From assembly GCF_008369915.1 (NCBI RefSeq), contig NZ_VSRN01000001.1, positions 558,001 to 622,000 on the forward strand: DNA of 64,000 nt, written 5' to 3'. This stretch comes from Dyadobacter sp. UC 10 (GTDB lineage: Bacteria > Bacteroidota > Bacteroidia > Cytophagales > Spirosomataceae). This document shows, in pieces, positions 10,044 through 30,911 of this stretch. The notes under the pieces are model-generated. The model searched no databases. It was not told the origin of the DNA and saw nothing but the letters and a program-made list of their open reading frames with translations. The first letter of the stretch is position 1. Each line of letters opens with the position of its first letter. A program made the translations under genes and the position numbers.

Positions 10044-10065
10044 ATGTTTTATTTTGTAAGCAGTA

Positions 10066-11625: not shown

Positions 11626-11637
11626 CCCGAATTCCTG

Positions 11638-14356: not shown

Positions 14357-14366
14357 CAAACGTTTG
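14357..14366. promoter_or_regulatory. LacI-type operator 1 upstream of susC
   Basis: The palindrome CAAACGTTTG has the central CpG typical of LacI/GalR operators. Its flanks, TTTTTT before and CAT after, match the operator in the lacI-iolB gap at 23172. It is 137 bases before the susC start codon. Confidence 0.75.
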
Positions 14367-14372
14367 CATAGA

Positions 14373-14390
14373 ATTTCAAACGTTTGAAAT
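14373..14390. promoter_or_regulatory. LacI-type operator 2 upstream of susC (18-bp perfect palindrome)
   Basis: ATTTCAAACGTTTGAAAT is a perfect 18-bp palindrome with the same CAAACGTTTG core. Its centre is 20 bases, about two helical turns, from operator 1, so two repressor dimers could bind the same face of the helix. Confidence 0.78.
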
Positions 14391-14502
14391 GCACATCAAC
14401 TTTATTCTATAATTTATTTTAAAAATACAAATGCAATCTTGCAGCTAATCCTCTATCACTACTCCATCTCTTTATGTTGTTCAAAATCAATAATTCACAA
14501 GT

Positions 14503-17500
14503 ATGATGAAAAATCTATCCCGATTGGTCAGATCCGGCCTATGGCGAAGTTATGTGATGATTTTCGCTGCTGCTTTAAGTATGCAGGCGAATGCCGCGCC
14601 CCTATTTGCCCTCAGAGAGATAACGCTTTCCGGAAAAGTGCTCACAGAAACGAGTTCGGAGCCTCTGCCTGGCGTAACTGTTGTTATTTCCGATTTAAAC
14701 GGCGGGAACAAACAAGGCGCAACCACCGATGAAGCAGGTGCATTTTCGTTCGCCAACCTGCAAACAGATACCCGGTATAATATCGAATTCAGCTACATTG
14801 GCTTTGAGAAGCAATCTCTCAGCAACTTCCTGCTGACGGAAGCAAACGCCAGTTCCATTCAGATCAAACTGAAAGAAGCAGCGTCCAACCTGGGTGAAGT
14901 AGTGGTAGTGGGCTATGGCACAACCGTCAAAAAAGACATTACCGGCTCCGTCAAATCACTGAAAAGTACCGAATTCAACTCCGGTATCATTAATTCGCCG
15001 GAACAGCTTTTACAGGGAAAGGTATCCGGCGTGAACGTTACTTCGGCCACAGGTGAGCCAGGCGCGAAAACCAATATCACCATTCGCGGCCCGGGCGGCG
15101 TGCGGACAGGCAGTACCCCACTTTTCGTGGTCGACGGAATGGCGCTTGACAATAGCGGTACCGGCGGTGACACCAACCCGCTCAACTTTCTTAATCCCCA
15201 GGATATTGAGTCGATGGACGTTTTGAAAGATGCCTCTGCAACCGCCATTTACGGAGCAAGGGGAGCAAACGGAGTCATTTTGATCACTACCAAAAAAGGG
15301 AAATCCGGCCAGGCAAGCGTCAATTACTCCGGAACGCTCGGTATATCTACATTGGCCCGTCCGCTCGACGTTTTGTCCGGACCCGAATTTCTGACCGAGG
15401 CTGGCAAGCTGGGCAGTACCGTGATCAACGGAGGTGCGGATACCGACTGGCAGAAGGAAATTTCAAGAACAGCAACCACGCACAACCACAATATAGCGAT
15501 CGGCGGGGGAACTGAAAAAATGACCTATTACGGCTCGTTCGGAGCGCAAAAGCAACAGGGTATCCTGAAAGGCAGTCAGCAGGACCGTTTTTCAGGCCGG
15601 GTAAACCTTTCCCAAAAACTTTTGAACGACCGGGTAACACTCGATGTCAACCTGAACGCAACCAACACCAAGAATAAAAAACCAAACGTACAAGGTATCA
15701 TCGGCGGTGCCGTCACCGCCAACCCGACCTACGCTCCTTACAAAGAAGACGGCAAGCCATTTCAGTATGAGGACGGCACCAACCCGCTGGTTCACCTGGC
15801 ACTTTACAAAGAACTTCTGAGTACGAACCGGGTCCTGGCAAGTATTTCGCCTTCGGTAACGATCATAAAAGGGTTGATCTACAAGCTGAACTTCGGCCTC
15901 GATCACGCTACCTCCGTGCAGGACAAGCAAACTTTGCCAAACGAAATCCCTTATGAAATGGGCCGGCTTGAAAACTGGGGCACCAAAAACTCCAACAGGC
16001 TGATCGAGAACTATCTGACTTACACAACGAATACGAAAAATCACAGTTTCAGTGCACTTGTCGGGCATTCCTACCAGCACATTTTTTTACAGGAGCGTAA
16101 TTTCAGTGTTAATAAATTTCCGATCTCCGACATTGAGCCGATCTATAACCCCGGCCTGGGACAGCAAATCGACCTGGTATTGAACCAGCCCGGCGGCTTT
16201 GCCAGAATCAATGAGCTGCAATCGTTTTTTGGACGGGCTACTTATGGATTCAAGGATAAATATCTGGCAACTGCAACATTGCGTGTCGATGGTTCATCGA
16301 AGTTCGGGGCCAATAATAAATATGGGTACTTCCCTTCCTTTTCACTTGGCTGGCGCATTTCGGAAGAGCCCTTCATGAAATCCTCTCCTTTCTCCGACTT
16401 AAAATTGCGCGCAGGCTGGGGCTCGACGGGTAATCAGGAGATTCCATCGAAAATCACGCAGGCCCGTTTCACTTCCGTTGTTTCAGGAACAACGAGCTAT
16501 CCGCTCGACGGCTCGGGAACGTATCCGGCAGGAACCACTTACACCCGCCTCGCCAATCCGAATATCCAGTGGGAAGTGTCACAGCAAACCGATATCGGAC
16601 TTGATTTCGCATTGTTCAAAGGCGCATTGAGCGGGGAAATCGATTATTTCTCCAAAACGTCCCAAAAAATTCTGCTGGAAGTGATTCCAGCCGATCCCGT
16701 GCAGCCAGCAGGTACGTTCTGGACCAATGTCGCTGACATGAAAATTGTAAACCAGGGACTTGAACTGGATCTGAACTACCGGAACTCGACCGAAAGCGGG
16801 CTTAGATATGCCATCGGCGGTAACATTACTTTTATGAAAAATAATGTGACTAACTCACCCTATTCAGTAATTCCTTCGGGTTCGGCACAGGGCTCAGGAC
16901 TTACTTCGGCGACAATCAATGGCTATATCAACAACGAACCGATCGGTACATTTTTCCTGAAAGAGCACATCGGATTTGACGAAAAAGGGATCAGCCAGTT
17001 CAGGGATGTGGACGGCGACGGGATTATTTCGGATAAAGACCGGATTGCCGCCGGCACCGCAATCCCTACCCGGATGTACAATTTCAATGGCAGTGTAAGC
17101 TTTAAAGGTTTTGACCTGGCTGCCAACTTCAACGGTGTAGCCGGAAACAAGGTTTACGATAACACGGCCAATTCGAATTTTTATAAACTGAAATTGTCAA
17201 AGGGTGTGAATGTTACAAGAGAAGCACTTAACGACGCGGCAGAATCAGTTAATAATTCAGCCCCTGTTTCAACCCGCTACCTCAAAAACGGCGCTTACCT
17301 GAGGCTGAATAACCTGGTCCTGGGATACAATCTGAATACAACCAAACTGGGTATCAATAAGTGGATACAGACAGTGCGTTTGTCGGTTACCGGTCAAAAC
17401 CTGTTTGTGTGGACAAAGTATGACGGCTACGATCCAGAGGTAAACAATGACCGCCAGATCAATGGAATTACATCGTACGGCATTGACTATCTGAGCTATC

Positions 17501-17544
17501 CGAAAGCTAAAACTGTCCTTTTTGGTCTAAATGTTGGTTTTTAA
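14503..17544 (+). CDS. susC: SusC/RagA-family TonB-dependent outer-membrane receptor
   Basis: The 1013-residue protein has a signal peptide (to about residue 32, ANA), a carboxypeptidase-D-like domain (ITLSGKVLTE to about 125), then the SusC plug: VVVGYGTTVKKDITGSV, LFVVDGMALD, and MDVLKDASATAIYGARGANGVILITTKKG. A 22-strand barrel follows, with the C-terminal DYLSYPKAKTVLFGLNVGF ending in Phe. It imports a ligand across the outer membrane using TonB energy, with SusD as lid. The susD gene starts 10 bases after its stop. Two LacI-type operators lie upstream and match the one at the iol operon, so the ligand is predicted to be inositol or an inositol-containing compound. This is inference. Confidence 0.93.
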   Translation: MMKNLSRLVRSGLWRSYVMIFAAALSMQANAAPLFALREITLSGKVLTETSSEPLPGVTVVISDLNGGNKQGATTDEAGAFSFANLQTDTRYNIEFSYIGFEKQSLSNFLLTEANASSIQIKLKEAASNLGEVVVVGYGTTVKKDITGSVKSLKSTEFNSGIINSPEQLLQGKVSGVNVTSATGEPGAKTNITIRGPGGVRTGSTPLFVVDGMALDNSGTGGDTNPLNFLNPQDIESMDVLKDASATAIYGARGANGVILITTKKGKSGQASVNYSGTLGISTLARPLDVLSGPEFLTEAGKLGSTVINGGADTDWQKEISRTATTHNHNIAIGGGTEKMTYYGSFGAQKQQGILKGSQQDRFSGRVNLSQKLLNDRVTLDVNLNATNTKNKKPNVQGIIGGAVTANPTYAPYKEDGKPFQYEDGTNPLVHLALYKELLSTNRVLASISPSVTIIKGLIYKLNFGLDHATSVQDKQTLPNEIPYEMGRLENWGTKNSNRLIENYLTYTTNTKNHSFSALVGHSYQHIFLQERNFSVNKFPISDIEPIYNPGLGQQIDLVLNQPGGFARINELQSFFGRATYGFKDKYLATATLRVDGSSKFGANNKYGYFPSFSLGWRISEEPFMKSSPFSDLKLRAGWGSTGNQEIPSKITQARFTSVVSGTTSYPLDGSGTYPAGTTYTRLANPNIQWEVSQQTDIGLDFALFKGALSGEIDYFSKTSQKILLEVIPADPVQPAGTFWTNVADMKIVNQGLELDLNYRNSTESGLRYAIGGNITFMKNNVTNSPYSVIPSGSAQGSGLTSATINGYINNEPIGTFFLKEHIGFDEKGISQFRDVDGDGIISDKDRIAAGTAIPTRMYNFNGSVSFKGFDLAANFNGVAGNKVYDNTANSNFYKLKLSKGVNVTREALNDAAESVNNSAPVSTRYLKNGAYLRLNNLVLGYNLNTTKLGINKWIQTVRLSVTGQNLFVWTKYDGYDPEVNNDRQINGITSYGIDYLSYPKAKTVLFGLNVGF

Positions 17545-17554
17545 TTATTACCCG

Positions 17555-19246
17555 ATGAAAAAGAAACTATCACTCATATTTACGGCTGCCGGTTTGTTGT
17601 TGTTTGCAAATGGCTGTACCGATCTGAAAGAACAAGTACTCGATGAAACACTGAGCGTAGAACTCTCTGACCAGGCGGCTGCAAACGGGCTGATTGCGCC
17701 AGTGTACGCGTTGCTGCCTAATTTGTTTCAACATACAACCTATTTCGCTTTACAGGAAATCACGACCGATGAGGCGATCCTGCCGTACCGAGGCGGCACA
17801 GACTGGGGCGACAATGGAATTTACCTCGCCCTGCACCAGCACAATACAACCAGCACAGATCCTAACGTGAACAATACCTGGAACTCACTGGTACAGTCTA
17901 TTTCCAGGTCAATTACTGCAATTACCGGTTTCAAGGAATCTTCCGATCCGAATGCAGCGATTTACCTGGCTGAGGCACGGGGAATGCGGGCTTATTATAA
18001 CATGGTCATGCTGGATATGTTCGGGATTGTTTTTATTAAAGAGGATCCGGGAACAACGTCCAAAATCGTCAGGGGCGACGAAGCCGTCAAATACATTGAA
18101 AGCGAATTACTGGCCGTGGAGCCACTTGTTCAGGCCAAATCGGCGGTAGGTCCCGGGCGCCTGAATCAGGCTGCTGTATGGAGCTTGCTGGCGAGGTTGT
18201 ATATCAATGCCGGCGTTTACCGTAATGTATATGCCCCTACGATCGAGTTTCGTCCGGAAGATTTAGACAAGGTGATCCAATACACCGACAAAGTGATCAC
18301 ATCCGGTCAGGCTAAACTTTCAGCTGATTACTTTTCGATTTTTTCAAATGATAACCACAGCAATCAAGAGCTTATTTTTGCTGTGGATCAACGGGCTGAT
18401 CTCAACGGTCATAACAGGATGGCGTACTTTTCAATTTCCGGTGACCAGTTCCCACTTGCCGAGTTTCCCGGCGCAAACGGTACAGACGGCCCCGGTATCA
18501 CTTCGGACTTTTACCAATCCTGGGTGCAGGCTTACGGTGCGGTGGACCCAAGCCGCGACCCTAGATTCTATCAGCAGAATATGTCGATTTATACCAACGC
18601 TGCGGACACTTGCATCAGTGATGCCGATTACAAGATCAACCGTGGTATTTTGAGAGGCCAGCAATATGGTGCTTTGCGGGTAAATGGCGCATTTGTAAGG
18701 TGCGCGGGCGATAAATTGAAGGTTGGAAAGCTCACTTACGTAACGCGTAACCGTGCGGACCTACCAGTAAGCTTTTCAGAAATGATCGACTTCACCACTG
18801 CGGGCAGTAACTACAATACAGGTTATCGCGTGGCGAAATATGAGTTCAGCAGCAAATCCAATACCGGCAGGAACAAAGGAGAAGCGGATATTGTGATTGT
18901 TCGTCTGGCTGATGCTTACCTGATGCGCGCGGAAGCTAAGCTACGCAAAGGCGACGCAGCCGGCGCATTGGCAGACGTAAACCTGGTACGCGCTTCACGG
19001 ACTGCCACTTTGCCCCCTCCTGCGCTCACGAGCATGACGCTGGATATTCTTTTCCGTGAAAGAGGTTTTGAGTTTTATTGGGAAATGCTGCGTCGTACAG
19101 ATATGATCCGGTTTGGTAAATATGAAGGCAAATGGACGGAAAAGACAAATTCAGACGTCCACAAACGCATTTTCCCTATACCGCAAACAGCAATCGACGG
19201 CGCGTCGAATTTACCAGGGTACTTGTCGCAGAACGAGAGTTACTAG
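17555..19246 (+). CDS. susD: SusD/RagB-family nutrient-binding outer-membrane lipoprotein
   Basis: The ATG at 17555 is chosen because it begins a good lipoprotein signal (MKKKLSLIFTAAGLLLFANGC, lipidated Cys). An upstream ATG at 17531 would overlap susC and add non-signal residues. The 563-residue product shows the SusD N-terminal TPR-like part (YLAEARGMRAYYNMVMLDMFG) and the C-terminal RagB domain (VIVRLADAYLMRAEAKLRKGDAAGALADVNLVR, RERGFEFYWEMLRRTDMIRFGKY). It acts as the ligand-binding lid of the SusC channel on the cell surface. It is followed by a strong terminator, so susCD is a two-gene operon. Confidence 0.93.
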   Translation: MKKKLSLIFTAAGLLLFANGCTDLKEQVLDETLSVELSDQAAANGLIAPVYALLPNLFQHTTYFALQEITTDEAILPYRGGTDWGDNGIYLALHQHNTTSTDPNVNNTWNSLVQSISRSITAITGFKESSDPNAAIYLAEARGMRAYYNMVMLDMFGIVFIKEDPGTTSKIVRGDEAVKYIESELLAVEPLVQAKSAVGPGRLNQAAVWSLLARLYINAGVYRNVYAPTIEFRPEDLDKVIQYTDKVITSGQAKLSADYFSIFSNDNHSNQELIFAVDQRADLNGHNRMAYFSISGDQFPLAEFPGANGTDGPGITSDFYQSWVQAYGAVDPSRDPRFYQQNMSIYTNAADTCISDADYKINRGILRGQQYGALRVNGAFVRCAGDKLKVGKLTYVTRNRADLPVSFSEMIDFTTAGSNYNTGYRVAKYEFSSKSNTGRNKGEADIVIVRLADAYLMRAEAKLRKGDAAGALADVNLVRASRTATLPPPALTSMTLDILFRERGFEFYWEMLRRTDMIRFGKYEGKWTEKTNSDVHKRIFPIPQTAIDGASNLPGYLSQNESY

Positions 19247-19269
19247 GTTTAAACAAAAGTTGTTAGATT

Positions 19270-19313
19270 AAAAAGCGATAGGCCGGGATTCCAACCCCCA
19301 CCTATCGCTTTTT
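19270..19313. terminator. Bidirectional terminator between susD and higA
   Basis: A 13-bp stem AAAAAGCGATAGG / CCTATCGCTTTTT (19270-19282 with 19301-19313) has A-runs and T-runs on its two sides. It can end transcription from susD on the plus strand and from the higBA remnant on the minus strand. It reaches into the higA stop codon. Confidence 0.85.
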
Positions 19314-19602
19314 AAATATCGATCTGAATTCTAACTTTTCCGCCTAATCCCTTCTCAACGATTTCGTAAAGTGTTTTAAGATTGAGATTGCTGCCATCAT
19401 TTTCTACCCTCGAAATAAATTCGCGCTTTTTGTCAATGATATTAGCCAGCTGCGACTGTGTAAGGTTTTTTTCTTCACGGGCCTTTTTTAAGAGCAGCCC
19501 GATCCTGAAACCAGAAACATCCCGCTCTAAATTATCGCGCCGCTCCGTTCCGGTTTTCCCATAAACATCATCCTTGATTTCCGTCCAGCTTTTAGTTTCC
19601 AT
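19312..19602 (-). CDS. higA: HigA-like XRE-family antitoxin
   Basis: The ATG at 19602 (METKSWTEIKDD) is preferred over an upstream TTG at 19623 because it gives the usual HigA start and overlaps the end of higB by only 11 bases. The 96-residue protein has an XRE helix-turn-helix at about residues 40-80 (LLLKKAREEKNLTQSQLANIIDKKREFISRVEN). The family binds and neutralises HigB ribosome-dependent mRNA interferases and represses the operon. Here the partner toxin gene just upstream appears broken, so this may be an orphan antitoxin and regulator. Confidence 0.85.
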   Translation of the reverse strand: METKSWTEIKDDVYGKTGTERRDNLERDVSGFRIGLLLKKAREEKNLTQSQLANIIDKKREFISRVENDGSNLNLKTLYEIVEKGLGGKVRIQIDI

Positions 19603-19970
19603 TGCGCGATGGTTTAGTTTCAAAATATTCTGTCATAAGTCTCGATTCCCTTTCAATCTCTTGCCTGGGTGTTTTTTGAGATTTCTTTTGGAATCCAGTC
19701 GGCAACACAACCAGCCTATCATTGTCAAAAAAGCAGAATACCCGCCAAATGTCCGAGCCCAGTTCTATTCTATACTCATACAACCCACTGGTACCCTGCA
19801 TCGACTTTAAATAATTCGACGGAACTCGTTCTAGCATCTCTATTGCTTCGATTATCTTGAATTATCTTGTCTTGAACCTTCCCTGGCTGATTTACAAGAA
19901 ACTCTTCGAAATAGTGTTTGTAGGCGGCGACCTCTCTGACTTTTCCCGTGATGAAGGTAACTTTAAAGTT
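19592..19970 (-). pseudogene. higB: higB-like toxin gene, frameshifted by a 10-bp tandem duplication
   Basis: Two pieces in different frames join into one RelE/HigB protein. The upstream frame reads FKVTFITGKVREVAAYKHYF, then EEFLVNQPGKVQDKI (about 19970-19871). The downstream frame reads FKIIEAIEMLERVPSNYLK and, after GLYEYRIELGSDIWRVFCFFD, ends ESRLMTEYFE (19861-19592). The break is a 10-bp tandem duplication, attatcttga / attatcttgt at 19851-19870. Removing one copy restores KVQDKIIEAIEMLE. The upstream frame also has no ATG, GTG or TTG between its in-frame stop (19992-19994) and the conserved part. The 81-residue ORF from 19837 lacks about the first 45 residues of a HigB and is probably inactive. 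Confidence 0.75.
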
Positions 19971-20052
19971 ACTATTTTCGAAATTGCTCGTCTATTTAGA
20001 CGTGGGATTCAGCAACTGGTTACTTAACATTCTATAAATCGAATGCAACTAA

Positions 20053-21054
20053 TCAAACATTAATCCAATCCATTTGCGAAGCTTCGTACCGCTCCCCTGC
20101 CGCGCTGCCTACTGGCACGATCAATTCCAGTCTCTGTTTCTCTTGGGCTGTGAGTATCACTTCGGTCGCGGCAGCATTTTCTTCGATATACTTAATCCTC
20201 TTCGTGCCGGGAATGGCGACTATGTTATTCGACGCTACCCAGGCGAGTGCGAGCTGCGAAGGCGTAATGCCTTTTTCAGCAGCGATTGACTGTATTGCTT
20301 TTAGCAAATCAAGGTTTTTGTAAAAATTCTCACCCTGATAACGCGGGATACTTCCTCTGAAATCATCCGCAGCAAAATTGTCCGGACTTTTCAATTCGCC
20401 GGTTATAAAACCGCGTCCAAGTGGCGAATAGGCTACAAAACAGATACCTGATTCTTTCAGTACATCCAAAATGCCATTTGCCTCGGGCTCCCGTTCGAAA
20501 AGTGAATATTCGGTCTGAACAGCTGAAATAGGATGAACCTGATGTGCTTTCCGGATTGTTTCCGCAGATACTTCCGATAAGCCGATATATTTAACTTTGC
20601 CAGCCTGGACCAGCTCCGCCATCGCACCGACTGTATCTTCAATAGGTGTATCCGGGTCGAGCCGGTGCAAATAATACAGGTCAATATAATCGGTTCCCAA
20701 ATTTCGCAGCGACCGGTCAATCGACTTTCTCACATATTCCGGCTGCCCGTTGAAACCCCAGGTAAGCTGCTCGTTATCATCGATTTCGAAACCGAATTTA
20801 GTGGCAACGATGTATTTATCCCGGTTTCCTGAAATTGCTTTGGCGACCAGCCGCTCATTCAACAGCGGCCCGTATAAATCGGCTGTATCCAGAAAATTGA
20901 TACCCAATTCCAATGCGCGGTGAATGGTGGCGATGGACTCTTTTTCATCTGCCTTTCCATATATATCACCGCCCGCGATGGTCGTCATGCCCATACAGCC
21001 CAGTCCCTGAACAGGTACTTCAAGTCCCTGGCTTCCTAAATTGATCTTTCTCAT
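20053..21054 (-). CDS. Aldo/keto reductase
   Basis: The start at 21054 ([13 protein letters not shown]) is chosen because it is the usual family start; an upstream ATG would add 11 atypical residues. The 333-residue NADP(H)-dependent TIM-barrel enzyme has the catalytic tetrad Asp56, Tyr61 (DTADLYG), Lys86 (VATKFGF) and His130 (YYLHRLD). A cofactor-binding [16 protein letters not shown] sits near the C-terminus. It belongs to the AKR13-like group that reduces aldehydes or ketones; the substrate is unknown. An AraC regulator gene lies 91 bases upstream on the same strand and may control it. Confidence 0.92.
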
Positions 21055-21144
21055 TTTGCGTTTGTTGTTTGTGATTAACAAGTGCAAAAGTAGGAGATCA
21101 AATTCCGGGGTTCGCTACAAGTTTCAAAGCGAAAATTATAGTTT

Positions 21145-22038
21145 TCAAAGTGACTTTCTAAAAACCAGCGGCGTGTTACCCGTATGCTTTTTGAAGAAAT
21201 TATTAAAATAGGATGCATATTCAAAACCCAGGCTGAATGCGATGTCGGCCACACTCCAGATAGTATATTGCAGTAAAGATTTGGCTTCCGTCAGCAGACG
21301 GTCATTGATATGTGCGGTGGTGGATCTACCCGTAACTTCCTGTACAGCAGCATTCAAATGATTTACATGTACCGAAAGCTTTTCCGCGTAATCACTTGCC
21401 TTTTTCAGTTTCAGCATATTCTCCGGCGAATCGACGGGAAATTGTTTTTCCAGAAGATTAAGAAACAATTTTGCAATCCGGGAAGATGCATTGGTATGAG
21501 TAAAATAAGCCAGCGCCGGCTGCATTTTGATCGCTTCGTGAATAATCAGACTAACCTGATTCCGAATTACATCGAGCTTGAAAACGTACTCACTGTCAGC
21601 TTCCTGCCTGATTCTCTGGAAGATACTTTCGAGATAAGCGGTTTGTTCGGGATTCAGGTGATAGATGGGATCACCACCTACTTTGAAGAGCGGCGATTCT
21701 TCCAGATTTTCCGTCCGTCCATTGTGATGCAGGAATGAATCGCTCAATATGCAGAAATAGCCGGAAGGTTCTTCATGCAGCATTTCCCAGGAATAGGGAA
21801 TCAGCGGATTGGTAAAAACCAGCGCAGGTGCAGTGATTTCAATACCCCTGTTGGCATAAAACAATCTGCTTCTACCGGTCAGTATCAGTGATATTTTGTA
21901 AAAATCGCGGCGATTGTACGAGGCCAGTGTGCATTGATCCTCTCCTACTACCGAAATCCTGAACTGCGCAGGCTTAAACAAGATGTCCGGCGCCCGGCTC
22001 TCTGCGCGCTGCACTATTTCGAATTGCTCCATCTTCAA
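21145..22038 (-). CDS. AraC-family transcriptional regulator
   Basis: The 297-residue protein has an N-terminal cupin-like sensing domain (residues about 20-150) and a C-terminal AraC DNA-binding domain with two HTHs. The second helix region is WSVADIAFSLGFEYASYFNNFFKKHTGNTPLVFR, the classic AraC signature. No transmembrane segment is present. It is transcribed in the same direction as the aldo/keto reductase just downstream, a common pairing in which the regulator activates a detoxifying reductase. The effector is unknown. Confidence 0.9.
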   Translation of the reverse strand: MKMEQFEIVQRAESRAPDILFKPAQFRISVVGEDQCTLASYNRRDFYKISLILTGRSRLFYANRGIEITAPALVFTNPLIPYSWEMLHEEPSGYFCILSDSFLHHNGRTENLEESPLFKVGGDPIYHLNPEQTAYLESIFQRIRQEADSEYVFKLDVIRNQVSLIIHEAIKMQPALAYFTHTNASSRIAKLFLNLLEKQFPVDSPENMLKLKKASDYAEKLSVHVNHLNAAVQEVTGRSTTAHINDRLLTEAKSLLQYTIWSVADIAFSLGFEYASYFNNFFKKHTGNTPLVFRKSL

Positions 22039-22102
22039 AATTAACTATTTCAAAGAATAAAGCAATTCGCTTTAAGCTTCGTCAGGCTGGCAAAATAAAT
22101 CA

Positions 22103-23134
22103 TCAAATCCGCAGGGTTGACTCCCGAATAACCAGCTCGGAAGGCAGTACAATGCTTTCGTGCAGGAAGTCGCCGGAACCGTTGACCTGACTAAGGAACA
22201 GTCGGGAAGCTTCCATTCCAATCTTTCGGCCCGGGCGGGTTACGGTTGTCAGTGACGGGAAAGTATAAGCAGAGATCGGCGAGTTATCGAAACCTACCAG
22301 CCCGACTTCCTGTGGTATCTTGAGTTCCTTGTCCTTTACAACCCGCATCGCACCGATCGCTACCTGATCATTTACCCCGAAGATCGCATCGGGCGGAGCG
22401 GCCATTTCGAGTAGTCGCTTGGTAGGAAGGATCGCACTCTCAACTTTGAAATTAGTATTGATAATCAGCTCTTCCTGAACAGGCATATCGTATTTTTTCA
22501 GACAATCCACATACCCTTTCAGCCGCTGCTCGGAAACTGTCAGCCCGTTCGGCCCCTTCAAATGAGCAATCCTTTTGTAACCGATGCTGATCAAATGTTC
22601 GACTGCCGCAAATGCGCCGTGGTAATCGTCGACTGTGGCCCTGCTCGTTTCGAAATCCTCATACTCTCGGTCAATAAATATCAGCGGCGTTTTTCGCTGG
22701 ATAACATTTTCCAAATGCTCGTAATAGCCTGAGTCATAGGTCTCCTGTGAAACGGAGAGAAAAATACCCTCAGTCCGGTTCGAGAGGAGTTTGGATAAAT
22801 ATTCTTTCTCGAGCAGATAGTTTTCATTCGTCACACAGATATTAAGTGTGTAACCAAGCGGCTGCAGAGCAGTATGCAGCCCTTCAATTACGGCGGTTTC
22901 GTAGTAATTACTAATCGTCGGCACCACCACTCCCAGTGAAGCCGTCTTTTTGTTCAACAGACTGAGCGATACCTCGTTCCGCTGATAACCTACTTCCCGG
23001 GCATATTCCTGGATGTTTTTGCGGGTGTCTTCATTGATCGCCGGGTGGTCGTTCAACGCCCTGGAAACGGTGGAAGGGGAGCACCTGAAACGGCGTGCAA
23101 TGTCTTTGATTGTAACGGGACGGGAGGAATTCAT
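22103..23134 (-). CDS. LacI-family repressor of inositol genes (predicted)
   Basis: The 343-residue protein has an N-terminal LacI HTH and hinge (VTIKDIARRFRCSPSTVSRALND, residues about 7-29) and a periplasmic-binding-protein-like effector domain (ASLGVVVPTISNYYETAVIEGLH, then FDNSPISAYTFPSLTTVTRPG). It is divergent from iolB. The gap contains CAAACGTTTG 38 bases before its own start, so it likely represses itself and the iol operon. The same site lies before susC, suggesting it also controls the SusCD importer. The inducer is predicted to be inositol or an intermediate; this is inference from context. Confidence 0.92.
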   Translation of the reverse strand: MNSSRPVTIKDIARRFRCSPSTVSRALNDHPAINEDTRKNIQEYAREVGYQRNEVSLSLLNKKTASLGVVVPTISNYYETAVIEGLHTALQPLGYTLNICVTNENYLLEKEYLSKLLSNRTEGIFLSVSQETYDSGYYEHLENVIQRKTPLIFIDREYEDFETSRATVDDYHGAFAAVEHLISIGYKRIAHLKGPNGLTVSEQRLKGYVDCLKKYDMPVQEELIINTNFKVESAILPTKRLLEMAAPPDAIFGVNDQVAIGAMRVVKDKELKIPQEVGLVGFDNSPISAYTFPSLTTVTRPGRKIGMEASRLFLSQVNGSGDFLHESIVLPSELVIRESTLRI

Positions 23135-23171
23135 TGATCGGATCTGAGCGATTAATTCTTATTTATTTTTT

Positions 23172-23181
23172 CAAACGTTTG
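23172..23181. promoter_or_regulatory. LacI-type operator in the lacI-iolB divergent region
   Basis: The palindrome CAAACGTTTG sits between the two divergent start codons, 38 bases from lacI and 78 bases from iolB. The surrounding TTTTTTCAAACGTTTGCAT is identical to operator 1 upstream of susC. It is the only CAAACGTTTG core noticed outside the susC region. Confidence 0.8.
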
Positions 23182-23258: not shown

Positions 23259-24119
23259 ATGAGTAACCTGCTGATCAAGCCAAAAAATGACAAAACTTAC
23301 CATTCACTCACAGCCGCACAGGCGGGGTGGACTTATTTGAACTTTGAGGCGAAAGTACTGGATGTTAATGAACAAATATCCGGTAATACCGGTGAATATG
23401 AATATTGCTTCGTTTTACTCGGCGGAAATTTTAAAGTAGAGGCAGCCGGGCAAATCTGGGAAACGCAAAATGGCAGAAAAGACGTTTTTAGCGGCATTGG
23501 ACATGCCATGTATCTTTCCCGCAGAACAGATTTTGTAATTACAGCCCAATCTCCTGAAACCGATATTGCGATCTGCAAAGTCCTGTCAGACGAAGACCAT
23601 CCGCCCAGAATGAAGCGCCCGGAGGAAGCGGCGATCGAATACCGTGGCGGCGACAATGCGAACCGGCAGATCAACAGCCTGCTCGAACCAGGTTTTGACT
23701 GCCACAAAATAGTTTGCGTGGAGGTATATACGCCCTCCGGCAACTGGAGTTCATTCCCTGCGCACAAGCACGACGTCAGAAAGGTGGATTCCGAAGGAAA
23801 CTTGCTGGAAGCGAACCTGGAAGAGATATATTTTTATAAAATCGATAAACCGCAAGGCTACGCCATTCAGCAGGTTTACACCGAAGACCGCTCTCTCGAT
23901 GAAATTGTGCGGGTAAAACATAACGAAGCCGTACTGGTACCGAAAGGGTATCACCCTGTGGTGGCGGGTCACGGTTACAACGTATACTACCTCAACTTCC
24001 TGGCCGGCAGCGACCAGTCCCTCGCCAACACTTCCGATCCCGATCACGACTGGATCTACGGAACATGGAAAAGCGCGGACCCAAGATTACCGATTGTAAC
24101 GGCGGAGATGAATGGATGA
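23259..24119 (+). CDS. iolB: 5-deoxy-glucuronate isomerase
   Basis: The 286-residue protein matches IolB (KduI/IolB cupin family). It converts 5-deoxy-D-glucuronate to 2-deoxy-5-keto-D-gluconate. Visible landmarks are TYLNFEAKVL, the metal-site region SSFPAHKHDV with its histidines, LEEIYFYKIDKPQGYAIQQVYTEDRSLDE, and the late VPKGYHPVVAGHGYNVYYLNFLAG. Length is normal. It is the first gene of the iol operon, behind the divergent LacI regulator and its operator. A heptamer-repeat element separates it from iolC. Confidence 0.95.
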   Translation: MSNLLIKPKNDKTYHSLTAAQAGWTYLNFEAKVLDVNEQISGNTGEYEYCFVLLGGNFKVEAAGQIWETQNGRKDVFSGIGHAMYLSRRTDFVITAQSPETDIAICKVLSDEDHPPRMKRPEEAAIEYRGGDNANRQINSLLEPGFDCHKIVCVEVYTPSGNWSSFPAHKHDVRKVDSEGNLLEANLEEIYFYKIDKPQGYAIQQVYTEDRSLDEIVRVKHNEAVLVPKGYHPVVAGHGYNVYYLNFLAGSDQSLANTSDPDHDWIYGTWKSADPRLPIVTAEMNG

Positions 24120-24120
24120 G

Positions 24121-24273
24121 GGTTGGTGGCTGTTAGCGGTTAGCTTTTAGCTATTGGCTATTGGCTATTGGCTATTGGCTACCAGTCGGTGGCTCTTTAA
24201 CCTTTGAAACTAATTATTTAATCGACAAAATTATCAGCTAACTCAAAAAGCCAACAGCTAAAAGCCACCACCC
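24121..24273. repeat. Inverted heptamer-repeat element between iolB and iolC
   Basis: The left arm (24122-24182) contains units ggtggct, gttagcg, gttagct, tttagct and four copies of attggct. The right arm (24231-24273) has the complementary gccaaca/gctaaaa/gccacca pattern. Between them is an AT-rich core. The right arm ends 2 bases before the iolC ATG, leaving no room for a Shine-Dalgarno site. Confidence 0.82.
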
Positions 24274-24275
24274 AA

Positions 24276-25283
24276 ATGAAATCCCTAGACCTATTAACTC
24301 TTGGCCGCTCTTCCATCGACTTATATTCGGCCAATGTTGGCAGCCCTTTTGAAAAAATTGAAGCATTTAATGCATTCGTCGGCGGCTGCCCTCTGAATAT
24401 TGCTACCGGCAGTCAGCGACTTGGATTGAAGACTGCGATTTTAACCGGTATCGGTGATGACCAGGTTGGCAACTTTATCAAACATTTTTTAGACGAAGAA
24501 GGAATTTCCACTGAGTGGGTACCAGTCATCGCAGGGACCAGGAGTTCTGCCGTAGTACTGGGGATAGAGCCTCCTGATCGTTTTCCGCTGGTCTATTACC
24601 GTGAAAACTGCGCTGATATCAATTTGAATATCGATCACGTAGCGGCTATTCCTTTTGAACATTTCAAGGCAGCGGCATTTTCAGGAACTGCATTCAGCAA
24701 AGATCCGAGCCGTACCGCGATGTTTTATGCATTGGAACTGGCCAAGAAAAACGATGTCATCAGGTTACTGGATATCGATTTCCGCGCCGACCAATGGTTT
24801 GACCCCCGGGCATTCGGAGTAACACTGCGCGCTGCTTTGGAAAGCTTTAATATCATAGTAGGAACAGAAGAAGAGATCCTGGCCACTTTTCTGACTGACA
24901 AAGAGCAGCTACTCATCAAGCATCAGCAAATCTCAGCCCCCGAGATAAGAGGTAACATTGAGAATGCGATCAACGAAATCCTTGCATCCGGCGTGGAAAC
25001 ATTGGTTGTGAAGAGAGGCAAAGACGGCGCGTCGATTTTTCAGCCGGGTAAAGAAGAAGTAAAAGTCCCGGGATTTCCGGTGGAGGTTTTAAATGTACTG
25101 GGCGCAGGCGACGCTTTTTGCGCCGGGTTTTCTTACGGCCTTCTAAATGGCTGGGATCTGTACAAAAGCGTAAGAATGGGCAACGCCTGCGGAGCTATCA
25201 TCGTGACCAGGGAAGGCTGCGCCAACTTTATGCCTACGCTGGAAGAAGTAACATCATTTACAGAAGGTTTTGGGGGGTTGTAG
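24276..25283 (+). CDS. iolC: 5-dehydro-2-deoxygluconokinase
   Basis: The 335-residue PfkB-family kinase phosphorylates 2-deoxy-5-keto-gluconate. It starts LDLLTLGRSSIDLYSANVG, the IolC N-terminus, and has the sugar-binding GGCPLNIATGSQRLG. The PfkB signature 2 is VLNVLGAGDAFCAGFSYGLL, with the catalytic Asp in GAGD. It has the simple length of stand-alone IolC and lacks the C-terminal aldolase-like extension seen in some IolC proteins, consistent with a separate iolJ in the operon. A stretch of REP-like repeats separates it from iolA. Confidence 0.95.
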   Translation: MKSLDLLTLGRSSIDLYSANVGSPFEKIEAFNAFVGGCPLNIATGSQRLGLKTAILTGIGDDQVGNFIKHFLDEEGISTEWVPVIAGTRSSAVVLGIEPPDRFPLVYYRENCADINLNIDHVAAIPFEHFKAAAFSGTAFSKDPSRTAMFYALELAKKNDVIRLLDIDFRADQWFDPRAFGVTLRAALESFNIIVGTEEEILATFLTDKEQLLIKHQQISAPEIRGNIENAINEILASGVETLVVKRGKDGASIFQPGKEEVKVPGFPVEVLNVLGAGDAFCAGFSYGLLNGWDLYKSVRMGNACGAIIVTREGCANFMPTLEEVTSFTEGFGGL

Positions 25284-25336
25284 GAAAGAAGGAAAAGGGA
25301 GGAAGGAGGAAAGGGAGGAATGGAGAAAGAAAAAAA
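25284..25336. repeat. Purine-only tract after iolC
   Basis: After the iolC stop the plus strand is almost purely purine (ggaaaagg/gaggaagg-type units) up to the REP-like block. It resembles the left arms of the polypurine elements at 32775 and 53944, but here the pyrimidine right arm is absent. Confidence 0.7.
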
Positions 25337-25493
25337 GGGCGCAGCCCAAAAAATCAATTGCCCCGGGCTTCAGCCCATGAAGAGAAAAGAGAAAAAGGGC
25401 GCAGCCCAAAAATCAATTGCCCCGGGCTTCAGCCCATGAAGAGAAAAAAGGGCGCAGCCCAAAAAATCAATTGCCCCGGGCTTCAGCCCGGGG
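25337..25493. repeat. REP-like repeat, three copies
   Basis: Three near-identical 39-40-base units start at 25337, 25397 and 25450. Each begins GGGCGCAGCCC (a mini-hairpin) and ends with CCCCGGGCTTCAGCCC. In the third copy this extends to the near-palindrome CCCCGGGCTTCAGCCCGGGG at 25474-25493. The form resembles repetitive extragenic palindromes mobilised by RAYT transposases; no transposase is in the window. Confidence 0.88.
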
Positions 25494-25510
25494 ATAACAT
25501 AAATAGATAG

Positions 25511-26977
25511 ATGGAAAAATTAAGGAATTATATTAATGGGCAATGGGTAGACAGCCATTCTGAGCAATTTGAAAAGGTATTAAACCCGGCAAGCCAGGAG
25601 GTTCTGGCGCTGGTACCCTATGGAAACAAGCAGGATGTAGCAGATGCTGCTGCGGCTGCCCAGGCCGGATTTCAGGAATGGAGAAGTATGCCGGTTTCCA
25701 AGAGGGTTCAATATTTGTTCAAACTGAAAACACTCCTCGAAGATAATCTCGACGACATAGCCAGGACGATTACCCTTGAATCGGGCAAAACTTTCGTGGA
25801 AGCAAAAGCGGAGATGGTGCGTGCGATTGAAAATGTGGAAAATGCATGTGGTACACCCACGCTGATCCAGGGCGAATTTTCAGAAGATATTGCCAAAGGC
25901 ATCGACGAATACATGATCCGCCAGCCGCTGGGCGTGTGCGCATGCATTGCGCCTTTCAACTTTCCGGGCATGATCACATTCTGGTTTTTGCCCTATGCGC
26001 TGGCTTGCGGCAACAGCTACATTATCAAACCATCCGAAAAAGTACCGCTGACGATGACCAAAATTGTCGGCCTGATGGATCAGCTGGATTTGCCGAAAGG
26101 TGTGCTGAATCTGGTGCAGGGAGCGAGAGAGGTGGTGGATTCATTACTCGAACATCCTGTAATCAAAGGCATTAGTTTCGTAGGATCTTCCAATGTAGCC
26201 CGTCACGTTTACGCCAAAGGTGCTGCAAACGGAAAACGCGTACAAGCCCAGGGTGGCGCCAAAAATCCGGTGATCGTACTACCGGATGCGGATATTGAAA
26301 TGACCTCCCAGATTGTGATCGATAGCGTGTATGGCTGTGCAGGGCAACGCTGTCTTGCCGCTTCGACCATTATCACGGTCGGAGAGCATAAGGATATTAC
26401 CGAAAGCCTGGTAGAATCGGCGAAAGCGCGAAAGACCGGTTTTGGACTTGATAGTGACGTTTTAATGGGTCCCGTGATCACGGCTGAAAGCAAGAACCGG
26501 GTTCAGACCTTAATCGAGCGGGGCATTAACGAAGGCGGACGTTTACTTGTCGACGGACGTAATCCGAAAATAGACGGTTACGAACAGGGTAACTTTATCA
26601 ATCCGACGATTATAGAAGACATTCCTTTGGACGGAGAACTCGCTGCTACCGAAATTTTTGGACCGGTTCTGACATTGGTTCATATCAATACCATCGACGA
26701 GGCGATCCGGTATATCAACTCCGGTAAATATGGAAATATGGCCTGTATTTTCACCAGCAGCGGCTCCAATGCACGGAAATTCCGTCATGAAGCGGAGGCC
26801 GGGAACATCGGGATTAATATTGGCGTAGCCGCTCCTGTCGCACAATTTCCCTTTTCAGGTTGGAAAGATAGCTTTTACGGCGACTTGCACGGCCAGGGAA
26901 AACACGCGGTCGAATTCTTCACCCAGACAAAAGTGGTGATCGAACGCTGGCTCAAAGAATGGAACAGAAAATTTTAA
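25511..26977 (+). CDS. iolA: CoA-acylating malonate/methylmalonate-semialdehyde dehydrogenase
   Basis: The 488-residue aldehyde dehydrogenase converts malonate semialdehyde, NAD+ and CoA to acetyl-CoA and CO2, the last step of inositol breakdown. The oxyanion Asn150 lies in APFNFPG and the catalytic Cys281 in [11 protein letters not shown]. The motif QAQGGAKNP (246-253), in place of the glutamate-containing motif of other ALDHs, is diagnostic for the CoA-acylating MMSDH class. The ending [29 protein letters not shown] is also typical. It follows iolC in the operon. Confidence 0.95.
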
Positions 26978-26993
26978 TCATATTAATCCATAC

Positions 26994-27013: not shown

Positions 27014-27029
27014 CAAGGTAATCCAGCAC

Positions 27030-28058
27030 ATGACAAAAAAACTTAAAACTGGTGTGATCGGACTTGGGCGGATCGGCCAAATCCACCTGAGCAACCTTGT
27101 TCACCACATGCCAAACGCAGAGGTGATCATCGCTTCCGACGTATCTACGGCATCACACGCATTCGCGCTGAACCTGGGTGTGAAGGAAGTGACTACCGAT
27201 GCCTACGATGTGATCAACCACCCTGATGTGGAAGCAGTGATCGTGTGCTCCCCTACCCCTTTTCACGTTCCGTATACGGTTGCTGCGGCGCGCCAGAAAA
27301 AGCATATTTTCTGTGAAAAACCATTAGATGTGACGTTGGAGGCAATCCAGGAGGCTGAAAAAGCGGTGAATGAGAACAATGTAAAATTGATGCTCGGCTT
27401 TAACCGCCGGTTTGACGCCAACTTTAACAATGTAAGGACACTGGTCGAAGCCAACAAAATCGGCGACCCACACATACTTCGCATTACCAGCCGAGACCCT
27501 GCACCACCTCCGGTTGAATATCTGAAAGTTTCAGGCGGGATCTTTCTCGATATGTCGATCCATGACTTCGATATGGCGCGCTATATCGTGGGCAGCGAGG
27601 TCAGGGAAGTATTCGTAAAAGGCGACGCACTGATCCATCCGGAGATCAGGGAATTCGGGGATATAGACACTGCTGTGATCGTTCTGACCTTTGAAAATGG
27701 CGCAATTGGTGTGATTGACAATAGCAGAAAAGCAGTTTACGGCTACGACCAGCGTCTGGAAATTTTTGGATCAAAAGGAATGGCGAAAGCGGAGAATAAC
27801 ACAGCCGACACTTTAATCCATTTCGATGATAATGGCGGCCACAGCTCTCTCCCGCTGCATTTCTTCCTCGAAAGGTATGAAACTGCATACCGCGTTTGCC
27901 TCAAATCTTTTATAGATTGCGTGCTGAACGACAAACCTTCACCTGTCGACGCCCACGACGGATTAATGGCGACGGCGATCGGTATTGCTGCCATGCGATC
28001 ACTTACGGAAGGTAGAAGCGTAAAATTGAGTGAGGTTTTGCAGTATGCGGAAGTGTAG
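27030..28058 (+). CDS. iolG: Inositol 2-dehydrogenase
   Basis: The 342-residue Gfo/Idh/MocA oxidoreductase oxidises myo-inositol to 2-keto-myo-inositol with NAD+. The Rossmann motif is TGVIGLGRIGQIH (residues 7-19) and the EKP motif is at residues 96-98. The catalytic region has GGIFLDMSIHDFDMARYIVG, with the conserved Asp and His of IolG. Length is normal. The gene sits in the middle of the iol operon, before the symporter. Confidence 0.95.
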   Translation: MTKKLKTGVIGLGRIGQIHLSNLVHHMPNAEVIIASDVSTASHAFALNLGVKEVTTDAYDVINHPDVEAVIVCSPTPFHVPYTVAAARQKKHIFCEKPLDVTLEAIQEAEKAVNENNVKLMLGFNRRFDANFNNVRTLVEANKIGDPHILRITSRDPAPPPVEYLKVSGGIFLDMSIHDFDMARYIVGSEVREVFVKGDALIHPEIREFGDIDTAVIVLTFENGAIGVIDNSRKAVYGYDQRLEIFGSKGMAKAENNTADTLIHFDDNGGHSSLPLHFFLERYETAYRVCLKSFIDCVLNDKPSPVDAHDGLMATAIGIAAMRSLTEGRSVKLSEVLQYAEV

Positions 28059-28121: not shown

Positions 28122-29735
28122 ATGTCCACTACCGGATTGCAATCGCTGGATTATGTTGTATTCTTTATTTATCTGATAGGCGTTTCTGCTTATGGTTACT
28201 GGATTTACAAGAAAAAGAGTTCGAAGGAAGTAAGCTCGACAGACTATTTCCTGGCCGAGGGTTCACTTACATTCTGGGCAATCGGTGCATCGATCATCGC
28301 TTCCAATATTTCTGCCGAGCACTTTATAGGCATGTCGGGCTCAGGCTTTGCAATCGGGCTGGCGATTTCTTCCTATGAATGGATGGCCGCCGCCTCGCTG
28401 ATCGTCGTCGCGGTTTTCATTCTTCCGGTTTATTTAAAAAACAAAATATACACGATGCCACAGTTTCTGCGGGAAAGGTATAACCCTACCGTGGCGACGA
28501 TTATGGCTGTTTTCTGGCTGCTACTGTATGTTTTCGTAAACCTCACTTCCATTCTGTACCTCGGTGCTCTTGCATTGGAGGTAACCGCCGGACTGGATTT
28601 CAATTACGGGATCATCGGATTGGGCATTTTCGCCGTGATCATCACGATTGGCGGGATGAAGGTAATTGGCTATACGGATGTGGTTCAGGTAATTGTGCTC
28701 GTGCTCGGCGGCTTAGCTACAACTTATCTCGCACTTGACCTCGTGTCGACGCATTTCAACAAACCGGGTATTTTTAATGCACTGGGTTTGCTGAGAGAGC
28801 AGGCAGATACACATTTCCACATGATCCTGCCAAAGGAAAGCCCTTTTTATAAAGATCTGCCAGGGTTAACCGTAATTATCGGCGCGATGTGGATCAATAA
28901 CCTGGCCTATTTCGGCTGCAATCAATATATTATTCAGCGGAGCCTTGGAGCTGATCTGCCGACTGCGCGCAAAGGGATTCTGTTTGCAGCTTTGTTGAAA
29001 TTGCTCATCCCGATCATCGTCGTGATTCCGGGTATTGCCGCTTTTGTTTTGTATCAAAATGGCATGTTCCAGCAGGAAATGCTTGATGGTGCGGGAGTTG
29101 TAAAACCAGACCACGCCTACCCTGTTTTACTAAATCTGCTTCCGGCGGGATTAAAGGGAATGGCGTTTGCAGCACTTACTGCGGCAATTGTTGCTTCACT
29201 AGCCGGAAAAGCAAACAGTATCTCGACAATTTTCACACTCGATATTTACAAACAGTACATCGCCCCGAATGCATCTGAAAAACAGCTGGTCAGGGTTGGC
29301 CGCTATACTATATATGTGGCGATGGCAATCGGAGTATTGATCGCACCGCAGCTACGCGTTTTGGACCAGGCTTACCAGTTTATCCAGGAATACAGCAGTT
29401 TTATCACGCCAGGTGTTTTCGCGATTTTCATACTTGGAATGTTCTGGAAAAGAACTACTTCCGCCGCCGCGCTTACAGCTGCACTGCTCACTATTCCGCT
29501 GTCAACCGCAGGCAAATTTATGGCGCCGGAAATACCATTTCTCGACCGTATGGGCTACATTTTTGTAATACTATGTGCGATCATCGTAATTATTTCACTG
29601 GCAGATCCAAGAAGCAAAAACAACCCGAAAGGGCTGGAAATCAACCAATCTATGTTTCTGCCCGGCAAAAGTTTCGTCATCGGCTCGGTACTGATATGCG
29701 GCGTTATCGCGGCTTTGTATACGGTGTTTTGGTAG
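28122..29735 (+). CDS. Sodium/solute symporter (SSS/SGLT family), likely inositol transporter
   Basis: The 537-residue inner-membrane protein has about 14 helices and matches the SSS (SGLT) family. Landmarks are SLDYVVFFIYLIGVSAYGYW, STDYFLAEGSLTFWAIGASIIASNISAEHFIGMSGSG (TM2 and the sodium-site region) and AALTAAIVASLAGKANSISTIFTLDIYK. SGLT/SMIT relatives carry glucose or myo-inositol with Na+. Its place between iolG and iolJ makes inositol the likely substrate. It would take over after SusCD has brought the ligand into the periplasm. Confidence 0.93.
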   Translation: MSTTGLQSLDYVVFFIYLIGVSAYGYWIYKKKSSKEVSSTDYFLAEGSLTFWAIGASIIASNISAEHFIGMSGSGFAIGLAISSYEWMAAASLIVVAVFILPVYLKNKIYTMPQFLRERYNPTVATIMAVFWLLLYVFVNLTSILYLGALALEVTAGLDFNYGIIGLGIFAVIITIGGMKVIGYTDVVQVIVLVLGGLATTYLALDLVSTHFNKPGIFNALGLLREQADTHFHMILPKESPFYKDLPGLTVIIGAMWINNLAYFGCNQYIIQRSLGADLPTARKGILFAALLKLLIPIIVVIPGIAAFVLYQNGMFQQEMLDGAGVVKPDHAYPVLLNLLPAGLKGMAFAALTAAIVASLAGKANSISTIFTLDIYKQYIAPNASEKQLVRVGRYTIYVAMAIGVLIAPQLRVLDQAYQFIQEYSSFITPGVFAIFILGMFWKRTTSAAALTAALLTIPLSTAGKFMAPEIPFLDRMGYIFVILCAIIVIISLADPRSKNNPKGLEINQSMFLPGKSFVIGSVLICGVIAALYTVFW

Positions 29736-29933: not shown

Positions 29934-30911
29934 ATGCTCCTAACCACCAGACAACTCTTCGCTCAATGCTACTCCCGTTACGCGTTACCGGCGGTGAATG
30001 TGTTCTTTATGGAGGAAATCCATGGTTTGTTTGCGGCGGCGCAGGAGGCTCAGGCTCCGTTTATTGTTCAAACGACGCCTTTTGCAAGGGATTATGCGCA
30101 CCCCGAAATGCTCTTATCCATGATCGGCGCCGCCGCACGAATCTACCCTCAGGTAACCTACGCCATTCATATGGACCACGGTTATGAAGAACACATTTTT
30201 GACGCGATCGAAAAGGGAGGCTATACCTCGGTGATGATTGACGCATCGCATGACGATTTTGAAAAAAATGTGGAAAGAACAAAAGCAGTAGTAGCAAAAG
30301 CACATGCTAAAAATATCAGCGTGGAAGCTGAATTGGGTGTTTTGGCAGGGGTTGAAGATGATCTGACTGTCGACGCTGCGCATTCATTTTACACCAATCC
30401 GCAGCAGGTCGAAGATTTTGTAAAAGCGACGGACTGTGATAGTCTGGCGATTGCGGTAGGTACCAGTCACGGTGCTTATAAATTCTCGGGCGGCCAGGGT
30501 TTACAATTTAATATTCTGGAAGAAATACAGCAGCGACTACCTGGATTTCCGCTCGTTCTGCATGGCGGCTCCAATGTAATTCCCGAGGTGATCGGGCGTA
30601 TCAATGCAGCCGGAGGAAAACTTAAAACCGATGCAAAAGGCGTTCAGGAAGAGGAAGTAAGAAAAGCTATTCCGCTGGGAATCTGTAAGATTAATATTGC
30701 AACCGATACCCGGCTGCTCTGGACGATGGTCAATCGCGAATTCTTCCGCGACCGGCCGGAAGAGTTTGCCCCGACCACACCGGGGAAGGTTTTCATGGAA
30801 GAATACAAGCAGTTTATGCTGAAAAAATTTGATCTCTTCGGTTGTACCAATAAAGCCGGGGAGTTTCAATCAGAACTAAACCTGAGACAGGAGAAAATTT
30901 CACGATTATGA
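29934..30911 (+). CDS. iolJ: Class II aldolase for 6-phospho-5-dehydro-2-deoxygluconate
   Basis: The 325-residue class II fructose-bisphosphate-aldolase-family protein would cleave the IolC product to DHAP and malonate semialdehyde. The zinc and catalytic region is YAIHMDHGYEEH (Asp81, His82). Further metal and phosphate sites are VEAELGVLAGVED, AVGTSHGAYKFSGG and VLHGGSNVIPE. Its place before iolD, with which it overlaps by four bases (ATGA), argues for IolJ and against a glycolytic Fba, though the families are close. Confidence 0.88.
   Translation: MLLTTRQLFAQCYSRYALPAVNVFFMEEIHGLFAAAQEAQAPFIVQTTPFARDYAHPEMLLSMIGAAARIYPQVTYAIHMDHGYEEHIFDAIEKGGYTSVMIDASHDDFEKNVERTKAVVAKAHAKNISVEAELGVLAGVEDDLTVDAAHSFYTNPQQVEDFVKATDCDSLAIAVGTSHGAYKFSGGQGLQFNILEEIQQRLPGFPLVLHGGSNVIPEVIGRINAAGGKLKTDAKGVQEEEVRKAIPLGICKINIATDTRLLWTMVNREFFRDRPEEFAPTTPGKVFMEEYKQFMLKKFDLFGCTNKAGEFQSELNLRQEKISRL

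Follow-up and report, generated by a model that had tools for sequence, protein, structure and literature searches.

A shared LacI-type operator and a predicted inositol regulon with a SusCD importer in Dyadobacter

Bacteroidota carry many SusCD pairs, most of them without an assigned ligand, and in the case described here the class of ligand is indicated by an operator retained before the importer despite changes in gene order and in the breakdown pathway. A stretch of 64,000 nucleotides from Dyadobacter sp. UC 10 (NZ_VSRN01000001.1, positions 558,001 to 622,000; hereafter the window) raises this question, as it holds a susC–susD pair and a lacI gene diverging from an inositol catabolic (iol) operon, with the same short element before susC and between lacI and iolB. 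Is the importer controlled together with inositol breakdown and, if so, what does it carry? Here, we describe a comparison of these sites within Dyadobacter and across its family. The predicted link of SusCD to inositol catabolism through one regulator is strongly supported by phylogenetic footprinting that includes unlinked loci and a second inositol enzyme. A preliminary description of the window had proposed a single repressor for SusCD and the iol genes; it is the single regulator that gains this support, the sign of its action being taken only from the family.

Operator sites at susC and iolB

The core CAAACGTTTG occurs exactly three times in the window (Table 1), twice upstream of susC (ATG at 14503) and once in the gap from which lacI (start 23134) and iolB (start 23259) diverge. 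The second copy lies inside a perfect 18-bp palindrome, and TTTTTTCAAACGTTTGCAT is common to the flanks of copies one and three, just as the preliminary description had recorded. Because 100 dinucleotide shuffles of the window contained a mean of 0.06 copies, with none of the 100 reaching three, this number is far above chance; sites with one mismatch stand at 2598 and 36861. The element is an even palindrome with a central CG near its target genes, the form expected of a LacI-family operator. Extended to TKCAAACGTTTGMA, it is found at five places in the genome (control 0), namely two before susC and one each at iolB, a second SusC gene and an AraC gene.

Within the genus, the comparison covered the window's own locus and 47 others, making 48 Dyadobacter genomes, one of them 81% complete. 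All 48 encode an ortholog of the window LacI (83–97% identity in the other 47) and all retain the exact core in the lacI–iolB gap, as would be expected of an IolR-type operator conserved at iol genes; in 47 loci the nearest core begins 85–90 bp ahead of the aligned iolB start, against 255 bp in L066, where the IolB match is split. SusC orthologs were identified in 46 of the 48 genomes, always with the exact core upstream (46/46), and at 41 of the 46 the operators form a pair about 20 bp apart. Where SusC lies intact in the fetched iol stretch, at least one exact core is present within 500 bp upstream in 34 of 34 genomes and a pair in 30, and the pair is also seen in two genomes (G007 and G012) whose SusC is cut by the end of the stretch or contig. 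In G045 the two sites at the ortholog are separated by about 285 bp.

In nine genomes (G008, G014, G018, G030, G038, G040, G042, G046 and G047) SusCD is unlinked from iol: the distance is 0.9 Mb in G046, and in the others SusCD is on a different contig. There too, the operator pair stands directly before SusC (67–73% identity). These SusCD pairs were first read as having moved; in G047, however, SusC keeps the upstream neighbours that it has in the window and it is iol that lies elsewhere, so that either may be the part that moved. A blind search for the tandem arrangement returned 47 places in 44 of the 48 genomes (reversed control 0), which were assigned to 41 SusC orthologs, three iolB promoters, two SusCD pairs of a second type and one outer-membrane beta-barrel protein (PF25183).

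The operator beyond the genus

In a draw of 200 genomes of the family, the LacI ortholog is present at E below 1e-110 in 75, 41 of them outside Dyadobacter, and for 20 of the 41 the lacI locus was examined. The lacI–operator–iolB arrangement is repeated in G052, and in G113 and the genus g32 the operator precedes a gene for myo-inositol oxygenase (MIOX; PF05153, 359.5 bits on the L201 copy). The LacI ortholog and MIOX occur together in 36 genomes, and the MIOX locus was examined in 31 of these (all but one g32 and four g13); the exact operator lies upstream of MIOX in 20 of 20 loci from four genera (g32 11/11, g28 6/6, g36 2/2 and g9 1/1), with lacI elsewhere in the genome in 4 of the 11 g32 cases. 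In genomes that have no LacI ortholog, the exact operator was found upstream of MIOX in 0 of 17 loci examined. The two inositol routes are mutually exclusive in this draw from one bacterial family, MIOX being present in 152 genomes and IolB over its cut-off in 40 with an overlap of 0, and none of the 34 Dyadobacter drawn has MIOX. With iol in one case and MIOX in the other under one operator, regulon rewiring can be studied here as a natural experiment. IolB or MIOX is encoded in all 75 genomes that have the LacI ortholog, a figure that is weak alone, since the same is true of 192 of the 200.

The importer is found under the operator in other genera as well. Putative SusC orthologs (52–58% identity) with the operator and unlinked to lacI occur in g32 and in G095 and G136. 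In g32 it is the other 14-mer site of the genome that precedes SusC (52–55% identical over the part available), unlinked to lacI in all five genomes examined of seven searched (not G096 and G129). The order in G095 and G136 is operator, operator, SusC (63–65%), SusD (68–69%), operator, MIOX, and in G095, for which a gene list was made, no further gene lies in this series. In G205, lacI and the operator stand with a cut SusC (51%). In G132, of g13, lacI, operator and SusCD (60–62%) are adjacent and are followed by a GMC oxidoreductase gene. Two loci from small g13 genomes (L216 and L217) show lacI–operator–SusC(D), which in L217 is followed by a GMC oxidoreductase gene and a gluconate-2-dehydrogenase-subunit-3-like gene, the second named by sight. 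The g13 SusCD loci possibly reflect another oxidation route or another substrate.

The recognition helix of the regulator, CSPSTVSRALN, is identical in the aligned iol-type and MIOX-type LacI proteins, reads CAPSTISRALN in g13 and differs in three aligned LacI paralogs of the window's own genome (the alignment was made without G052 and G136). Several sensor stretches are likewise common to the Dyadobacter and MIOX types and different in G128 and G107, the residues that touch the ligand being presumably those known for the family. Computation has established where the sites lie and how well they are conserved, that they are present at unlinked susC genes, which enzymes are encoded and that the helix is shared.

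Regulator, effector and cargo

Co-regulation of SusCD with inositol genes is very likely, and the best explanation as a whole, in which we have good confidence, is an inositol regulon under the window LacI that includes a SusCD importer of free myo-inositol or a very simple derivative. LacI would bind T[T/G]CAAACGTTTG[C/A]A and, when inositol is absent, repress the iol operon, the divergent lacI gene itself and susCD, the last through the tandem site pair about two helical turns apart, and inositol itself would release it. SusCD would act as an active, TonB-driven outer-membrane importer, the sodium symporter would carry inositol over the inner membrane and the enzymes IolG, E, D, B, C, J and A would degrade it; homologs of the symporter (61–67% identity) adjoin MIOX in 7 of the 20 MIOX loci examined. 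The binding of LacI to the sites, the sign of control, the effector and the cargo are what we infer in this scheme. Before central metabolism, inositol is the one compound that the iol and MIOX routes have in common, and a regulator of both would therefore most simply sense inositol, which is the likely inducer. IolR of Bacillus subtilis and of Salmonella likewise controls iol genes. The B. subtilis protein, from a different family, has the intermediate DKGP as its effector. That the regulator described here is shared by the two routes points to inositol itself.

For the cargo, the preliminary description had offered an inositol-containing glycan, a galactinol-like compound or free inositol, and the gene neighbourhoods lean towards the last. 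Five unlinked or second-type SusCD loci, six iol loci and G095 (L258) were read by eye, without a CAZyme scan, and no glycosidase, phosphatase, esterase or other hydrolase is common to these 11 loci and G095, which is evidence against a glycan. Nor was any carbohydrate-active enzyme, as in a polysaccharide utilisation locus, recognised directly beside SusCD under the operator in this reading. No hydrolase recurs, by eye, at 20 extra operator sites examined, and the G095 stretch from the operator pair to MIOX contains none. An importer of an inositol conjugate (galactinol, glycosylinositol or inositol phosphate) that is cleaved later, with inositol merely the end-product inducer, is nevertheless suggested by the fact that most characterised SusCD pairs take oligomers, and an inositol-linked operator implies a cargo that contains inositol. 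In G132 the SusCD genes are followed by GMC oxidoreductase and gluconate-2-dehydrogenase-subunit-3-like genes (the second by sight), and the operator pair of G095 has two genes upstream of it that by sight resemble a pectinesterase and a lyase. Elsewhere, an amidohydrolase-like gene (by eye) is found some distance after SusCD in G008 and G040, and upstream of SusC in the window, beyond ABC genes, are two esterase-like genes (8818–9648 and 10066–10764), a permease and a sugar kinase; no operator was seen in the window before the esterase, permease or sugar-kinase genes. Given that no such hydrolase is common to the neighbourhoods, we consider a conjugate rather unlikely, and free inositol or a very simple derivative is the probable cargo, favoured over a glycan or galactinol. 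Structure-database searches gave only general LacI and SusD relatives and no hint of a ligand.

The link between importer and operon could also be apparent only, if the susC sites were used by a different LacI paralog or by a regulator of the catabolite type whose core is similar. The genome does encode nine LacI proteins, and related palindromes, TGTAAACGTTTACA and CGAGAACGTTCTCG, precede two of the other lacI genes (three of the eight other paralogs gave no clear result in this comparison). These two palindromes differ in the half-site, however, the recognition helix is not the same in the three other aligned LacI proteins, and the site accompanies both SusC and inositol enzymes across genera, so that separate regulators seem improbable. 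Chance recurrence of a common core would draw on CG-centred even palindromes being usual for the LacI family (Ravcheev et al. 2014, PMC4052901) and on the 13 genomic copies of the bare 10-mer. Against this, the core is retained at 48 of 48 iolB and 46 of 46 SusC promoters, unlinked copies included, and the tandem arrangement has a control count of 0; this retention at orthologous and unlinked promoters led us to reject chance, which we give next to no weight.

Several results weigh against an inositol regulon as outlined. The bare 10-mer is found at 13 places in the 6.93-Mb genome, five of them inside predicted genes, versus 15 for the reversed control, so that the core alone is not specific and proves nothing, though neither these 13 places nor the five of the extended palindrome approach the hundreds of unrelated sites that the preliminary description had named as counter-evidence. 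Outside Dyadobacter, the 14-mer occurs in 23 of 41 genomes with the LacI ortholog (35 sites, reversed control 5) but also in 28 of 125 without it (30 sites, control 10; Fisher p = 1.5e-4 with kinship ignored), and these latter sites suggest that other regulators may use it too. The exact operator is missing at MIOX in g13 (0/9) and g5 (0/2), 0 of 11 in all; the g13 LacI is more distant (50–54%) and stands beside the operator, with a 60% SusC in G132, yet MIOX there has no site, and the LacI–SusCD pair of g13 may serve something other than inositol. In G128 and G107 a related lacI (54–56%) is the last gene of the iol operon, and the stretch examined contains no exact site. G002 and G016 have no SusC ortholog (best matches 48% and 40%) and no exact SusC site in the sequence examined, yet keep lacI–operator–iolB. 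In G047, SusCD is not exclusively an inositol neighbour: several of the genes at window positions 6394–14181 (sugar kinase, permease, esterase and ABC genes) also stand beside its SusC (L140), with iol elsewhere, and the gene order on the upstream side of SusC seems older than the iol link. Two about equally conserved candidate promoters make the operator geometry at iolB ambiguous, no convincing candidate stands out at susC, and a candidate is present in 10 of 30 ino1 sequences; promoter geometry as a means of telling repressor from activator was accordingly set aside with no conclusion.

A further difficulty comes from inositol synthesis. In Dyadobacter, TGCAAACGTTTGCA lies upstream of the gene for myo-inositol-1-phosphate synthase (ino1, PF01658), which is present in 30 of the 48 genomes (loci L281–L310), though not in the window's own, with the exact core upstream in 30 of 30. 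The site is odd because a simple inositol-induced repressor would turn synthesis on with inositol present; either LacI can work both ways or this symmetric form of the site serves a different LacI. As the symmetric form is also found at MIOX in G113, beside the LacI ortholog, and at susC in G045 and G020, the same LacI is favoured. One tentative extension, on balance doubtful, is that LacI acts as an inositol homeostat, the same operator governing uptake by SusCD as a dedicated TonB-driven importer of free cyclitol, breakdown by iol or MIOX and synthesis by ino1; for this to make sense physiologically, its action on breakdown would be opposite to that on synthesis: with no inositol, it would repress uptake and breakdown and support ino1. 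That one regulon takes in both synthesis and breakdown is possible. Cra/FruR is a dual regulator of the LacI family, one pathway direction being repressed and the other activated, in central carbon rather than cyclitol metabolism. PckR is another of this kind (PMC4052901). Dual action of the Dyadobacter LacI is no more than possible.

The inositol regulon proposed here resembles several described systems in part. LacI-family IolR regulators of inositol utilisation form seven orthologous groups (PMC4052901), with which the window LacI shares the predicted role and the operator form typical of the family; the Dyadobacter regulon differs in its SusCD importer, in iol or MIOX according to genus and in ino1 in Dyadobacter. 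A monosaccharide SusCD encoded with utilisation genes, as proposed here, has a precedent in NanO/NanU, which serves sialic acid in Tannerella and Bacteroides (PMC3969230); the ligand is different and NanU is a weak sequence match to the window SusD (E = 0.014). In the AraR regulon of Bacteroides thetaiotaomicron (PMC4666351), one regulator similarly covers SusCD, an inner-membrane carrier and monosaccharide catabolism, but it includes extracytoplasmic glycosidases and also serves arabinose polymers, and AraR is of the NrtR family. A survey of iol clusters counts Dyadobacter among its positives, 3% of 2,227 Bacteroidetes species being positive, names IolR and describes inositol as abundant in soil; its main text contains neither 'TonB' nor 'outer membrane' (PMC9430895). 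In the open-licence literature on inositol with SusC, SusD, TonB or IolR we found no inositol outer-membrane importer, prior work elsewhere being possible; a LacI-type IolR and a monosaccharide SusCD are each known, and their combination was not found reported there.

Genes of the locus and further sites

The features of the locus are collected in Table 1. A SusC/RagA porin adjoins a SusD-family gene, as in SusCD importers (TIGR04056, TIGR04057 and PF07980), the two open reading frames overlapping at 17531–17544; the genome has 21 SusC relatives at E below 1e-100, and the best paralog is 41% identical. The window LacI has a helix-turn-helix domain (PF00356, 44 bits versus a cut-off of 27) and a periplasmic-binding-protein-like sensor domain (PF13377, 107.7 versus 26.5), and no NCBIfam model scores it over its cut-off. 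Six NCBIfam models over their cut-offs (iolB, iolC, iolD, iolE, iolG and iolA) mark the iol catabolic operon. The preliminary description had delimited it by iolB and iolE; both are present, but 23259–33938 also holds iolC, iolA/mmsA, iolG, the sodium/solute symporter, the aldolase and iolD. Two genes lying between SusD and lacI, for an aldo-keto reductase and an AraC protein, were considered as members of the module and dropped, being kept in only 8 of 47 relatives' loci.

Table 1. Coordinates in the window of the operator sites and of the genes discussed
Feature	Position	Strand	Basis
LacI-type operator core 1, upstream of susC, TTTTTTCAAACGTTTGCAT	14357..14366	.	exact core at 46/46 Dyadobacter SusC orthologs found
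LacI-type operator 2, before susC, in a perfect palindrome of 18 bp	14373..14390	.	core 14377-14386, 20 bp from core 1; tandem pair at 41/46 Dyadobacter SusC promoters
SusC/RagA TonB-linked outer-membrane transporter, 1013 aa	14503..17544	+	TIGR04056 720.6 bits vs cut-off 368; Plug and CarboxypepD_reg domains
SusD/RagB-family partner, 571 aa	17531..19246	+	PF07980 85 bits vs cut-off 23
LacI-family regulator, 343 aa, candidate inositol-responsive regulator	22103..23134	-	PF00356, PF13377; ortholog in 48/48 Dyadobacter genomes
Operator core 3, lacI–iolB gap	23172..23181	.	exact in 48/48 Dyadobacter lacI–iolB gaps
iolB, 5-deoxy-glucuronate isomerase	23259..24119	+	TIGR04378 321 bits vs cut-off 205
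iolC, 5-dehydro-2-deoxygluconokinase	24276..25283	+	TIGR04382 377 bits vs cut-off 300
iolA/mmsA, CoA-acylating methylmalonate-semialdehyde dehydrogenase	25511..26977	+	TIGR01722 555 bits vs cut-off 448.5
iolG, inositol 2-dehydrogenase	27030..28058	+	TIGR04380 464 bits vs cut-off 355
Sodium/solute symporter, probable inner-membrane inositol carrier	28122..29735	+	TIGR00813 314 bits vs cut-off 184
Class II aldolase, likely IolJ role (from operon context)	29934..30911	+	TIGR00167 236 bits vs cut-off 215.6
iolD, trihydroxycyclohexane-1,2-dione acylhydrolase	30908..32773	+	TIGR04377 901 bits vs cut-off 715
iolE, myo-inosose-2 dehydratase	33036..33938	+	TIGR04379 394 bits vs cut-off 290

Further operator sites accompany other outer-membrane proteins. 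SusCD pairs of a second type, whose SusC is about 32% identical to that of the window, carry the operator in G008 (L131), G020 (L139) and G052 (L232), doubled in the first two, and the G052 copy is 64% identical to that of G008; a SusC in G097 (L213, 33%), similar by eye to this type, stands directly beside lacI and the operator. Beside lacI–iol in G045, an outer-membrane beta-barrel protein of 1075 aa (PF25183; L074:1412-4746) with no SusD is preceded by a tandem operator. It was considered as a receptor swap and is an addition only, G045 also having, elsewhere, a SusC ortholog with sites. In the window's own genome, the same 14-mer lies about 400 bp upstream of a second SusC gene (1078 aa; L261:5873, C1 ~3109872) adjoining a Gfo/Idh oxidoreductase gene. 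The exact core is kept there in 25 of 30 Dyadobacter loci examined and the oxidoreductase is present in 48 genomes; the divergent genes resemble hydroxyproline catabolism by eye. Within the iol operon, the iolC–mmsA gap (window 25320–25489) holds three 59-bp tandem copies with GGGCGCAGCCC and GGGCTTCAGCCC, which look like a mobile repeat by eye.

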